NCBI GenBank assembly: GCA_022361195.1
Contig: JAKSBJ010000223.1
Location: forward strand, 62,001-126,000
From: Flavobacteriales bacterium
GTDB taxonomy: Bacteria > Bacteroidota > Bacteroidia > Flavobacteriales_D > Crocinitomicaceae
Direction of reading: 5' to 3'
Length of the DNA stretch: 64,000 nt
The notes below the pieces were generated by a model that saw nothing but the letters and a program-made list of their open reading frames with translations, was not told the origin of the DNA and did no database searches. The position numbers and the translations under genes were made by a program. Shown one piece after another: positions 39,329-45,249 of the stretch. How positions within the stretch are numbered: position 1 is the stretch's first letter; each line of letters opens with the position of its first letter.

Positions 39329-39817
39329 ATGAAAAAATTAAATTTATTAGCCGCATTCTGCTTAGCTGGGCATTTTGCCGTAGCCCAAGACGGATGGTTG
39401 AGTTATCCTGCTTCATCGGACAGTACACGTCAGGAAGCTTCAAGAAAATTGGATTATTCTCAAAAAGATGGAAAGGTGACCGTTCATGGTGATGCTCGCC
39501 TGGATCAGATTGAGCAGTTTTTAAGAGCCGATGAAGAATCGATTGAGGGAATTAAGATTGATGGATTTCGAGTATTGATTTTCTTTGATCAGAGCAAATC
39601 CATTGCTGAACAGAAAAAGGCCAGTTTCATTTCTATCTATCCCGAACATCAAACCTATGTAGATTATTTAGCACCTAATTACCGTGTAAGAGTGGGAAAT
39701 TTCAGAACCCGATTAGAAGCTGAAAAGTTAAAAGCTGATATTTTGGGTGTTTTCCCAACAGCCATTGTGATTGAAGACAAAATTCAACTTCCATCACTGA
39801 ATAAGAAAGAAGATTAA
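39329..39817 (+). CDS. SPOR domain-containing exported protein
   Basis: Periplasmic or envelope protein of 162 residues. A signal peptide (MKKLNLLAAFCLAGHFAVAQ) is followed by a charged linker, a segment with VTVHGDARLDQIEQFLRAD, and a C-terminal SPOR-like fold: IDGFRVLIFFDQSKSIAEQK, then YRVRVGNFRTRLEAEKLKAD. SPOR domains bind peptidoglycan stripped of side chains, often at division sites; that role is inferred from the family. It is a single-gene unit bounded by a promoter and a shared terminator. Confidence 0.8.
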   Translation: MKKLNLLAAFCLAGHFAVAQDGWLSYPASSDSTRQEASRKLDYSQKDGKVTVHGDARLDQIEQFLRADEESIEGIKIDGFRVLIFFDQSKSIAEQKKASFISIYPEHQTYVDYLAPNYRVRVGNFRTRLEAEKLKADILGVFPTAIVIEDKIQLPSLNKKED

Positions 39818-39841
39818 TTACACAAAAAATATTGAGATAAG

Positions 39842-39871
39842 AAAAAAGGCGGGTTAAAACCCGCCTTTTTT
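39842..39871. terminator. Bidirectional terminator between SPOR gene and infB
   Basis: GGCGGG (39848-39853) pairs with CCCGCC (39860-39865) around TTAAAA, flanked by an A run before and a T run after. The A/T flanks extend the stem and give T runs on both strands, so it can end both convergent genes. Confidence 0.88.
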
Positions 39872-39891
39872 TATTTCGTATGATTATGCTC

Positions 39892-42567
39892 TTACAATTT
39901 TGAAGCTACTTCAACTTCGTGGAAGCATTCAACAACATCATCAACTTTGATATCGTTGAATTTGTCAATGTTCAATCCACATTCGTAGTTATGTTTCACT
40001 TCTTTTACATCATCTTTAAAACGTTTTAAAGATCCAAGTTCTCCGGTGTAGATTACGATTCCATCACGGATAACTCTTACACTCGCATTACGTTGAATAA
40101 CCCCTTCGGTAACATAACATCCTGCAATTGTTCCAACCTTAGAAATTCTAAAGGTTTCACGAATCTCAGCCGTACCAAGAATTTCTTCTTTAAATTCAGG
40201 AGCAAGCATTCCTTCCATAGCTGTTTTGATCTCCTCAATTGCCTGATAGATAACTGAGTAAAGACGAATGTCGATTTCTTCTTTTTCAGCCAGCTTTCTT
40301 GCAGGAGCTGAAGGACGAACCTGGAACCCAACAATAATTGCATCTGAAGCTGATGCCAAGGTGACATCTGCCTCTGAGATTTGTCCAACCCCTTTGTGAA
40401 TGATGTTCACTTGAATCTTTTCTGTAGATAGTTTCAACAATGAATCTGACAAGGCTTCGATTGATCCATCTACATCCCCTTTTACGATAACGTTCAACTC
40501 CTGGAAATCTCCAATTGCGATACGTCTTCCAATCTCGTCTAGTGTAATGTGCTTTTGTGTTCTCAATCCTTGTTCACGATGTAATTGCTCACGTTTAGAA
40601 GCAATTTGTTTCACTTCTTTTTCGTCCTTAAGAACGTTGAAAGCATCACCTGCAGAAGGTGCTCCGTTAAATCCAAGAATAGAAACAGGAGTTGAAGGAC
40701 CAACTTCATTTACTGCCTGTCCTTTGTCATTGTGCATTGCTTTTACCTTACCGAAGTTTTTACCGGCAATGATATTATCACCAATTTTCAATGTACCAGC
40801 CGAAACTAATACGGTAGTTACGTATCCTCGACCTTTATCAAGCGTTGCCTCTACTACCGTTCCGACAGCATTTTTACCAGGATTTGCTTTTAAGTCCAAT
40901 AATTCAGACTCGAGCAATACCTTCTCCAACAATTCATCAACGTTAGTTCCATGTTTAGCAGAAATTTCCTGCGACTGGTATTTTCCACCCCAATCTTCAA
41001 CCAGGATGTTCATCGTTGATAATTGTTCTTTAATTTTATCTGGGTTCGCCCCTGGCTTATCAATTTTATTAATTGCAAATACCATTGGTACACCTGCTGC
41101 CTGAGCGTGAGAAATTGCCTCTTTCGTTTGAGGCATTACGTCATCATCAGCCGCTACAATGATAATAGCGATATCAGTTACCTGAGCACCACGAGCACGC
41201 ATGGCCGTAAAGGCTTCGTGACCCGGAGTATCCAAGAATGTAATCTTCTTTCCACCCTCAGTCTCTACTGAATAAGCACCAATGTGCTGGGTGATTCCCC
41301 CGGCCTCACCTTCAATCACATTCGCCGAACGAACGTAATCCAATAAGGATGTTTTACCGTGATCAACGTGTCCCATTACCGTAACAATTGGAGGACGAGA
41401 AACAAGATCTTCTTCCTTATCTTCCTCAACAATAATAGACTCCTGAACTTCGGCACTGATAAATTCAGTTTCAAATCCAAACTCAGCAGCTACTAATTGA
41501 ATGGTTTCTGCATCCAAACGTTGGTTGATGGAAGCAAAAATACCAAGGGACATACAAGCACCAATTACTTCAGTAGCAGAAACATCCATCATACTAGCCA
41601 ACTCTGAAACTGTCACGAATTCTGTCAGTTTCAAGATTCCTTTCTCTAGTTCCTCTTGCTGAAGCTCTTCAGCTCTTTTTTCAGCAATACTTTGACGTTT
41701 CTCTCTACGGAATTTAGCACCTTTATTTTTACCACCTCCTTGTAATCTGGCCAGTGTTTCTTTGATCTCTTTTTGGATCTCCTGTTCAGTTACCTGAGGT
41801 TTTTCGGTACGTTTACCTTTATGTTTTCTGTTGTTGTTTGCTTTAGCCTGCTTTTCAACATTAACCTTTTTGATTCGTTTTCTCTTCTTACGGTCAGGTG
41901 AATCTTTTTTCTTCTTTTCACGCTCAACCGGAAGTTCGATTTTTCCAACCACCTTAGGGCCACTCAATCCTTGAGTTTTGGCTTTAATGGTTTCAATCTT
42001 CTTAGGTTCGTTTTGCTTTGGTTTTTCAGCAGCTGCAGGAGCTTCTTCTTTCTTTACTTCCTCTTTCTTCTTCTCTTCTACAACTGGCTTCTTAACCTCT
42101 TCTTTTTTCTCCTCTTCTTTCTTTTCTTCTTCTACAACAGGAGGTTTTTCAGCAGCAGGTTTTGCCTTTTCAGGCTTTGTTTTTTGGTTAATCGAATCCA
42201 AATCTATCTTTCCAACAACTGCAACTTTTACTCCAGTTCCAGTAGTCTTAGGCGGCTCTTCTTCTTCTTTCTCTTCTTTCGGCTCAACAACCTCTTCTTT
42301 TTTCTTGGCAGGCTCTTCTTCTTTGAGGTCTTTAAGCGAAATTGATTCTCTCTTTTCGGTAGTGGAAACGGCAGATTCCGAGATTGCTTTTGCTTCTTTA
42401 TCATCCGCAAATTCCTCATCCAAAACACTCATGATTTCAGGATCAATTTTAGTGTTTGGATTAGAGTCAATCTCTACCCCTTTTGTTTCCAAAAATTCAA
42501 CGATCGTAGAAATACTGATGTTGAATTCCTTCGCAACTTTGTTTAACCTTTTCGCTTTTCCTGCCAT
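39892..42567 (-). CDS. infB: Translation initiation factor IF-2
   Basis: GTPase that brings initiator tRNA to the ribosome. The N-terminal domain ([20 protein letters not shown]) is followed by a long Lys/Glu/Pro low-complexity region (about residues 60-300), then the G domain with GHVDHGKTS (near 397), [15 protein letters not shown] and [12 protein letters not shown], and the C-terminal domains including [20 protein letters not shown]. The length (891) is normal for Bacteroidota. It is the third gene of rimP-nusA-infB. The 55-base gap to nusA contains TATCTTTA on the minus strand, which might be an internal promoter. Confidence 0.98.
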
Positions 42568-42622: not shown

Positions 42623-43903
42623 TTATTCCTCCTCTATGTTCGCCTCTTCTTCCTGAGTTTCTTCCTCCTGATCGAATTCAGCTTTCAAAACTCGGATAAC
42701 ATCTTCGATGGTTTCTTCTTCCAAATCAGTTCGTTTCAAGAGTTCAGCCTTATCCAATTCTAATACTGATTGTGCTGAATCCAAACCAATAGATTTCAAC
42801 TCCCCGATTACCCACTGCTCTAGCTCATCTGCGAACTCATCCAAATCTACATCTTCAATATCCTCAGCTCCTTCACGGTAAACATCAATTTCATAACCCG
42901 TTAGCTTACCGGCTAATTTGATGTTGTGTCCTCCTTTTCCAATTGCCAATGACACCTGATCTGTTTTCAAGTAAACATCTGCTCTGGAGTCTTCCTCATT
43001 CAAATCAATTGTTGTGATTTTAGCTGGAGACAAGGCTCTTTGGATGAATAATTTATCGTTACTTGTGTAATTAATTACATCAATATTTTCATTTTTCAAC
43101 TCACGTACAATTCCGTGAATTCTTGCCCCTTTCATTCCCACACATGCTCCTACAGGGTCAATTCTGTCATCGTAAGACTCAACTGCAACTTTTGCTCTCT
43201 CTCCTGGCTCACGAACAATTTTCTTAATGGTAATGAGGCCATCAAATACCTCAGGTACTTCCAACTCAAATAATCTTTCCAGAAACTCAGGTGCAGTTCT
43301 TGAAAGGATAATGATTGGACTGTTATTTCTAAGATCTACTCGTGCTACAACAGCTCTGATAGATTCTCCTTTTTTGAAATAATCAGAAGGGATTTGCTCT
43401 GATTTTGGAAGGATCAACTCATTTCCTTCATCATCCAGAATAAGAATTTCACGTTTCCAAACCTGATAAACCTCTCCCGTAATAATTTCACCAATTCTCT
43501 CTTTATATTTTTTGTAGATATGATCTTTCTCTAATTCCAAAATTCTGGAAATAAGATTTTGTCTCAATGACAATACATTTCTTCGACCAAATCCTTCTAA
43601 CTTAACTTCCTCTGCAACTTCCTCTCCTACTTCAAAATCAGGTTCAATTTCAATTGCTTTAGATAGCGCTATTTCGATATTATCGTCTTCAACTTCCCCA
43701 TCAGGTACAATCTCACGGTTAATCCAGATCTCAAGGTCACCTTTATCTGGGTTAATGATGACATCAATATGCTCATCTGTTCCATATTTTTTCTTTAACA
43801 TGGAACGGAAAACATCTTGTAGGATGTTCATCATTGTTTCTCTATCTATATTTTTGAATTCTTTAAATTCTGAAAAGGATTCAATTAATTCCAACGCATT
43901 CAT
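42623..43903 (-). CDS. nusA: Transcription termination/antitermination factor NusA
   Basis: Binds RNA polymerase and modulates pausing, termination and antitermination. The 426 residues include the N-terminal polymerase-binding domain, an S1 domain (GEIITGEVYQVWKREILILD), the KH region (VGACVGMKGARIHGIVREL and VSLAIGKGGHNIKLAGKLTG) and an acidic C-terminal part (LDEFADELEQW... EEANIEEE). It follows rimP by 12 bases. In Proteobacteria NusA regulates its own operon; the hairpin ahead of rimP could be the target of such control here (inference). Confidence 0.97.
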   Translation of the reverse strand: MNALELIESFSEFKEFKNIDRETMMNILQDVFRSMLKKKYGTDEHIDVIINPDKGDLEIWINREIVPDGEVEDDNIEIALSKAIEIEPDFEVGEEVAEEVKLEGFGRRNVLSLRQNLISRILELEKDHIYKKYKERIGEIITGEVYQVWKREILILDDEGNELILPKSEQIPSDYFKKGESIRAVVARVDLRNNSPIIILSRTAPEFLERLFELEVPEVFDGLITIKKIVREPGERAKVAVESYDDRIDPVGACVGMKGARIHGIVRELKNENIDVINYTSNDKLFIQRALSPAKITTIDLNEEDSRADVYLKTDQVSLAIGKGGHNIKLAGKLTGYEIDVYREGAEDIEDVDLDEFADELEQWVIGELKSIGLDSAQSVLELDKAELLKRTDLEEETIEDVIRVLKAEFDQEEETQEEEANIEEE

Positions 43904-43915
43904 ATCATTTTCAAG

Positions 43916-44392
43916 TTAAAAAGAGATTATCAGTTTAGTTTCTTTTATTTCTTCGTATTTAAATGGCAACTCTTCTGTCACCCATATTTTTTTCTTCTTG
44001 CCTTCGAGTCGTTGTTTTTCTTTGGTCTCTACCACAATTCCTTCTTCATCAGCCTTGAGTAGTGTCCCTTCTACCGACTTAGCATGTTCGATTGTTTTTA
44101 CCTTCACCTGTTTCCCAACATTTTTGAGGTATTGTTTTAACACTCGAAATGGTTGATCCAGACCTGCAGAAGCCACTTCTAATGAAAAGTCTTCTATTTC
44201 ACGATCCAGATTATGTTCAATGTTTCTACTTACCGAAATACAATCTTCAATTGAAACGGAACCGTCTTCTTTGTCAATCTCTAGCAGAATTCGGTTTCCT
44301 GAATTAATGGATAATTCAACGATGTAGAGCATTTCGTCCCGTTCCTTCATCCGCTCCAGAGCTAACTCTTCTACTCGTTTTTTATCTATCAT
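43916..44392 (-). CDS. rimP: Ribosome maturation factor RimP
   Basis: Needed for 30S subunit assembly. The 158 residues show the family pattern: GNRILLEIDKEDGSVSIEDC, SVSRNIEHNLDREIEDFSLEV, and VASAGLDQPFRVLKQYLKNVGKQVKV in the N-terminal half, followed by an Sm-like C-terminal domain (VEGTLLKADEEGIVVETK). It is the first gene of rimP-nusA-infB. A promoter and a terminator-like leader hairpin precede it. Confidence 0.95.
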   Translation of the reverse strand: MIDKKRVEELALERMKERDEMLYIVELSINSGNRILLEIDKEDGSVSIEDCISVSRNIEHNLDREIEDFSLEVASAGLDQPFRVLKQYLKNVGKQVKVKTIEHAKSVEGTLLKADEEGIVVETKEKQRLEGKKKKIWVTEELPFKYEEIKETKLIISF

Positions 44393-44407
44393 TTCGGTGC
44401 ATAAAAA

Positions 44408-44427
44408 GAGGGGACTTTCGTCCCCTC
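44408..44427 (-). terminator. Terminator-like hairpin in the rimP leader
   Basis: On the minus strand GAGGGGAC, a GAAA tetraloop and GTCCCCTC form a perfect 8-bp stem, followed by five T. It lies 75 bases after the cyclase gene and 15 bases before the rimP ATG, downstream of a strong promoter (44457-44488). It may end the cyclase transcript, act as an attenuator of rimP-nusA-infB, or both. Confidence 0.85.
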
Positions 44428-44456
44428 ATCATTGTTGTTATTTCTTATTAACGGCA

Positions 44457-44488
44457 CAAATATACCTATTTATTCAAAAACTTCAAAA
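44457..44488 (-). promoter_or_regulatory. Promoter of rimP-nusA-infB
   Basis: On the minus strand TTTTG (44484-44488), a 19-base spacer and TATATTTG (44457-44464) match the Bacteroidota consensus with the ideal spacing. The predicted start near 44451 gives a leader of about 58 bases that contains the hairpin at 44408-44427. Confidence 0.68.
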
Positions 44489-44502: not shown

Positions 44503-45249
44503 TTAGTCCTGATGAATGGTATAAAGCATTATTTTGCTCGGAGAAGCATCATTTTCGAGACTCATAATTTGAATGTTGAGAAAATAATCTCCGTCTAGAA
44601 TTTCATTGGGCACATAAATAAGTTCGGTAATTGTTTTGTCCAATTGCGGATTATTGGGGTAATCCCAAAAAATATGATGACAGGCTACCTTACCACCATC
44701 CGACTCTCGATCCACCGAAGGCAAGTCGATCAACAAATGTTTTACTCCTAAATCATTGATAAATTCCATAGCCTCCTCTGTAAAATAAGGTGGATTACTT
44801 GCCGAATAATCCCTTGTTCGTTTTACATCACCATTGGGTAAAGTTCGAATAAGGAGTGCGGTATTTTCACCCAAATCAGTCAATTGAGCTTCTATCATGG
44901 ACCGATCCATGATTAAATCCTCCTGAAAAGCCTTTGGTTCAATCGAAATCAATTTTGCTTTAAAATGGAATTCCTTTAAACAGCCATTGATGGTATATAT
45001 CTCCTTTGAAATATGTCCCACACACTCGGTATGCGTTCCGTTACCATGCGGATTTAAGGTAATATTTTTGAAGTTTACAGCTCCCCCCTGATTAACATCT
45101 CCAATAAAACCATCTCCAACAACAGGTTCTATTAAAACATCATTACAATACCAAGCCCTAGCATTTTCACTCCCATTTTTAACCGGCAGCGAAACATCCA
45201 TTCCCTGATCTGTTAATACATAACTGTTTTCGTCCAATCGTAACTTCAT
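44503..45249 (-). CDS. Cyclase family protein (kynurenine formamidase-like)
   Basis: Metal-dependent hydrolase-like protein of 248 residues in the cyclase/kynurenine formamidase family. The metal motif usually written HxGTHxDxxxH appears as HGNGTHTECVGHI, with Glu in place of Asp. Other family marks are VNFKNITLNPH and HLLIDLPSVDRESDGGKVACHHIFW. The substrate is not known; neighbours give no tryptophan-degradation context, so kynurenine formamidase activity should not be assumed. TATCTTTG at 45255-45262 lies only 5 bases before the ATG, so the transcript may be nearly leaderless if that box is used. Confidence 0.85.
   Translation of the reverse strand: MKLRLDENSYVLTDQGMDVSLPVKNGSENARAWYCNDVLIEPVVGDGFIGDVNQGGAVNFKNITLNPHGNGTHTECVGHISKEIYTINGCLKEFHFKAKLISIEPKAFQEDLIMDRSMIEAQLTDLGENTALLIRTLPNGDVKRTRDYSASNPPYFTEEAMEFINDLGVKHLLIDLPSVDRESDGGKVACHHIFWDYPNNPQLDKTITELIYVPNEILDGDYFLNIQIMSLENDASPSKIMLYTIHQD

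Follow-up and report, generated by a model that had tools for sequence, protein, structure and literature searches.

A conserved terminator hairpin in the rimP-nusA-infB leader of Bacteroidota, probably a NusA-responsive attenuator

The 64-kb window, which is the whole stretch of DNA that was analysed, carries a rimP-nusA-infB operon on its minus strand. A sequence-only reading had described its leader as a consensus promoter followed by a perfect 8-bp hairpin with a GAAA loop, a T run and then rimP, and every one of these elements is present. The features are listed in the direction of transcription, with the evidence for each:

44484..44488, minus strand: TTTTG, upstream element of the promoter (-33 type), with a spacer of 19 nt to the -7 element; assigned by consensus only
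44457..44464, minus strand: -7 promoter element TATATTTG; agrees with the Bacteroidota sigma-A consensus TAnnTTTG
44408..44427, minus strand: terminator hairpin GAGGGGAC-GAAA-GTCCCCTC of 8 bp, six of them G-C pairs; sequence, fold and relatives
44403..44407, minus strand: U tract of five (TTTTT), interrupted by the AUG that follows; sequence
44382..44432, minus strand: small reading frame of 16 codons, overlapping with the start of rimP and considered incidental; sequence
43916..44392, minus strand: rimP, the first gene behind the putative attenuator; Pfam RimP_N, E 4.6e-10
42623..43903, minus strand: nusA, likely the controlled and sensing product; gene call
39892..42567, minus strand: infB (IF2), third gene of the operon; gene call

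TAnnTTTG is the -7 consensus of the Bacteroidota sigma-A (PMC9723704). On a consensus call, transcription is predicted to start ~5-7 nt past this element, near 44452-44450, which leaves about 24 nt to the hairpin; the stem is separated by 15 bases from the rimP ATG (44392-44390, minus strand). The predicted leader RNA of 50 nt folds with -17.8 kcal/mol (z = -5.2), and none of 200 shuffles is as stable. The fold consists of the hairpin and one weak stem; it contains no antiterminator or larger sensor structure, and no space is left in the leader for an antiterminator. A search of the leader against Rfam gives no family at the gathering score, and the rimP-leader family is absent at E<=10.

In the window's own GTDB family, the rimP leaders carry GAGGGGAC-loop-GUCCCCUC-UUUUU and vary mainly in the loop and the flanks. 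Of 60 family genomes, 38 contain the exact stem, GAGGGGAC-N4-GTCCCCTC, nearly always as a single copy. There are 39 copies in total, and 38 of them are positioned ~40-115 bases upstream of a RimP_N match. By this distribution, the exact-stem hairpin is specific to the rimP operon and is not a general-purpose terminator. The odd copy (G052, contig 5) is located behind another gene, like an ordinary terminator.

The comparison was extended to 149 rimP leaders sampled at the levels of family, class and phylum. With a simple scanner, a hairpin followed by a T run is detected in 126 of them, as compared with 9-11% of shuffles; the count of 126 is approximate, as the scanner overlooks hairpins visible by eye (e.g. 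L019, L044, L049) that have long loops, a mismatch or arms running into the T tract, and a few of its picks fall away from the true leader hairpin. At a strict score threshold, a terminator is found in 115 of the 149 leaders and in 0.4% of shuffles. In 103 of the 126 leaders (7.7% of shuffles), the motif TAnnTTTG precedes the hairpin by no more than 75 nt, at a near-fixed distance in the phylum leaders (median gap 23 nt), indicating that the order of promoter, hairpin and gene is kept. This order, noted at first in a single leader, thus holds across the family, the class and the phylum. Owing to the palindromic hairpin and its A-rich flank, the scanner also fires on 71 of the 149 reverse strands, a strand bias that is only moderate. 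Its counts therefore back the hairpin more than its strand, which is given by the promoter, the T run and the gene.

In the class Bacteroidia the stem is mostly (A)GAGGGGAC/GUCCCCUC(U), and in more distant classes its sequence is altered with the hairpin retained. Some classes have a C-rich 5' arm (L031, L033-L035, L047), e.g. AAGTCCCGCC...GCGGGACTT, which reverses the usual G-rich arm. One contig labelled Verrucomicrobia (L166) bears a rimP and a leader of Bacteroidota appearance and is possibly misbinned. Covariation by column of a MAFFT alignment was not relied on, as the 5' arm slid from the variation in loop length, and a loop-anchored table of pairs is circular since the hairpins were picked for pairing; the case for conservation rests on the shuffles, the sequence conservation and the gene context.

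A strict phylum-wide pattern proved too narrow, with matches in 5 of 296 genomes; the four for which rimP could be placed are all at rimP. A degenerate pattern, which admits Bacteroidota and Firmicutes-like forms, matches 80 loci in bacterial genomes, and at least 25 of these belong to leaders of rimP or nusA; the number is a minimum because several matches fall at the ends of loci. These rimP or nusA loci include Clostridia, Bacillales, Nitrospirae, Planctomycetota, Akkermansiaceae and Bacteroidota. The Clostridia stem AGAGUGGRC/GYCCACUCU differs from the Bacteroidota stem AGAGGGGAC/GUCCCCUCU by one exchange of a G-C for a U-A pair, so that the pairing and most of the sequence are common to both.

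The hairpin could in principle belong to the upstream gene. In the window, a cyclase-like gene (44503-45249) is co-directional with rimP and ends 75 nt before the hairpin with no other terminator in between, and the hairpin may act as a by-product terminator of that gene in this genome. Similar 3'-end sequence is found before rimP in L002, L023, L026, L028 and L030, so this neighbour is partly conserved. That the hairpin is simply the 3' terminator of the cyclase-like gene, with the rimP promoter tucked ahead of it, is very improbable: in 39 of the 88 loci with a sufficiently long flank, the upstream gene is transcribed divergently, and most of these 39 have the hairpin, which therefore is not the neighbour's terminator. 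Hairpin and promoter likewise persist where the upstream gene is unrelated, and the promoter precedes the hairpin in the large majority of leaders noted above.

The leader of the window also contains a six-codon frame (ATG 44402-44400, stop 44384-44382), for which coupling to rimP had been suggested. The frame is in place and, as had been overlooked earlier, is in frame with an ATGATG at 44432-44427, at the foot of the hairpin, so that the full frame of 16 codons runs through the hairpin. This geometry would suit leader-peptide attenuation, where translation of the small frame controls termination. Such a mechanism deserves hardly any credence here, as 13 of 29 family leaders have no leader ATG at all, the ATGs of the remainder vary in place, frame and length, and the frame lacks a run of regulatory codons. 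The suggested coupling is likewise not supported, the frame not being conserved among the 29 leaders.

The gene to which the element belongs is best seen where rimP is missing. In 20 genomes with nusA, rimP was detected neither by Pfam nor by a profile made here; one further genome (G426) was excluded, since the profile recovered a divergent rimP missed by Pfam. A hairpin with a T run is located ~50-200 bases before nusA, too close for an intervening rimP, in 18 of the 20 (the scanner detects it in 16 of 19; those of L212 and L220 were identified by eye). These genomes represent about ten families, including one member each of Planctomycetota, Akkermansiaceae and FCPU426. No leader hairpin was found before nusA in L210 (G446) and in L226, which comes from a genome of 0.5 Mb; L214 and L216, of the same family group as L210, have one. 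These two genomes out of 20, together with the variation of the stem and the C-rich 5' arms outside Bacteroidia, count against the reading as a NusA-responsive attenuator. The retention in the other 18 indicates that the element follows nusA rather than rimP, and the gene context favours nusA as the controlled product.

A related question is which product is sensed. RimP or IF2 could take the place of NusA in altering termination at the hairpin, as rimP and infB are both within the operon and RimP feedback has been raised as a possibility (PMC2965389). The 18 genomes that keep the hairpin before nusA without rimP argue against RimP. In the four nusA-leader loci that were checked, infB follows nusA, and this gene order leaves IF2 as a possible sensor. 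NusA acts on the elongating RNA polymerase, however, and IF2 is not known to do so. Either product is, on balance, a rather improbable sensor in place of NusA.

The U tract of the rimP hairpin is short. Exactly five T's and then another base follow 23 of 29 family rimP hairpins, whereas in 54 ordinary 3' terminators, taken from behind genes in the window's own genome and two family genomes, the T run averages 6.0 and is most often seven long (p about 1e-5, a value that overstates independence because the 29 leaders are related). As the controls come from the family of the window only, the comparison is weak at the class level. None of the 54 ordinary terminators contains GGGGAC. Within the window, a strong hairpin at 39841-39872, between infB and the converging gene 39329-39817, is flanked on either side by a T run (GGCGGGTTAAAACCCGCC, seven T's) and is an ordinary two-way terminator, in contrast to the five-T hairpin of rimP. 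In B. subtilis, interruptions of the distal U tract mark NusA-dependent terminators (PMC8060035). The rimP terminator is suboptimal in this sense through its interrupted tract of five U's, which, like the retention before nusA, favours NusA as the controlled product; the hairpin itself is strong. This strength of the hairpin counts against a NusA-responsive reading, since the NusA-dependent terminators of B. subtilis are reportedly often those with weak hairpins.

That a terminator inside the operon leader constitutes an attenuator, as the sequence-only reading held, is well supported: the order of elements is conserved, it is independent of the upstream gene, and the element follows nusA. The attenuator might still be unregulated, with a fixed terminated fraction setting the level of the operon and nothing being sensed. 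A very short leader that lacks an antiterminator or a larger conserved sensor domain would be in line with this, which we nevertheless consider unlikely, because the stem sequence is conserved far more than pairing demands, both within the family and class and, in part, in Firmicutes, and because B. subtilis has a comparable arrangement that responds to NusA (PMC12288461).

From the combined comparisons, the element is probably the Bacteroidota form of the rimP-leader, a NusA-responsive attenuator of rimP-nusA-infB. In this explanation, whose start site is taken from the consensus call, RNA polymerase would begin ~24 nt ahead of a strong G-rich/C-rich hairpin with a short, interrupted U tract. 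With no antiterminator, a portion of the transcripts would end as leader RNAs of ~50 nt, and the fraction that reads through would set the expression of the operon. Plentiful NusA would stimulate termination at the suboptimal U tract, and a shortage of NusA would let more polymerases read through into rimP-nusA-infB. Both termination in vivo and NusA as the responsible factor are what we infer for these leaders; feedback by NusA appears the best candidate because the same arrangement operates in B. subtilis (PMC12288461) and has been proposed for the rimP-leader (PMC2965389).

NusA is active at most transcription complexes, and its level must therefore be held tightly. A wider proposal, which we hold with slightly more doubt than confidence, is that the element is a NusA thermostat of ancient origin, shared by bacteria at large, which is owned by nusA and not by rimP and has survived repeated losses of rimP. 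Its stem and short U tract would be tuned so that termination reports the occupancy of RNA polymerase by NusA, possibly through a sequence-specific NusA contact. The rimP-less lineages with a hairpin before nusA offer a natural test of which product is sensed, and the tract of five U's leads to the prediction that a longer tract should abolish control by NusA.

One of the closest known systems is the rimP-leader, which Naville and Gautheret (2010, PMC2965389) reported to be the commonest attenuator. Known from Firmicutes, Gammaproteobacteria and other groups, it has a conserved G-rich/C-rich terminator and no antiterminator, with NusA as the best candidate regulator; Bacteroidota are absent from the main text of that paper (PMC2965389). 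Both there and here, a single G-rich/C-rich hairpin with a T stretch lies in the rimP-nusA-infB leader without an antiterminator (PMC2965389), and the stem sequence is conserved; the rimP-leader hairpin is placed 4-130 nt from the start codon (PMC2965389). Judged by sequence only, the leader of the window has the intrinsic terminator in its 5' part, lacks an antiterminator or larger sensor, and carries a hairpin that is operon-specific (38 of 39 copies at rimP). The arms, GAGGGGAC/GUCCCCUC as compared with GGGc/gCCC in the rimP-leader (PMC2965389), agree closely and not letter for letter: in GGGGAC...GUCCCC the G run and the C-G pair are separated by an A-U pair. The Clostridia leaders from the pattern scan also have GGRC/GYCC stems. 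The present leaders differ from the rimP-leader (PMC2965389) in their TAnnTTTG-type promoter and in a length of only about 60 nt. A small frame conserved across the hairpin, as in leader-peptide attenuators, is not found among the family leaders.

In B. subtilis, NusA is autoregulated through NusA-stimulated termination in its own leader (Mondal et al. 2016, as described in PMC12288461 and PMC8060035). That leader and the present one share an intrinsic terminator in the operon leader and an interrupted U tract (PMC12288461, PMC8060035), and the tie to nusA over rimP in 18 of 20 rimP-less genomes is of the B. subtilis type. The B. subtilis leader is longer, about 180 nt (PMC2965389), and the response to NusA is proven there (PMC12288461), whereas we infer it here.

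For the phylum, the earlier literature that was found contains only an unexplained structured leader, that of Flavobacterium psychrophilum (PMC9723704). There, a structured 5' element upstream of rimP, with no Rfam match, is listed as a probable regulator; it has in common with the present case the phylum, the gene and the structured leader, and it is transcribed and conserved in other Flavobacteriaceae (PMC9723704). The main text gives no function for it and no link to the rimP-leader or to NusA (PMC9723704). In E. coli, the metY-rimP-nusA-infB leader likewise has terminators, t1 and t2, upstream of rimP, and the operon is regulated by NusA; unlike the leader described here, it has several promoters, a tRNA gene and RNase III sites (PMC6511841).

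The kind of attenuator is therefore already known from the rimP-leader and from NusA autoregulation in B. subtilis, and the present comparison would extend it to the whole phylum. The element agrees with these two and with the structured leader of F. psychrophilum, and the connection of the three is new, as are its anatomy across the phylum, its persistence ahead of nusA where rimP is absent, and its short U tract.
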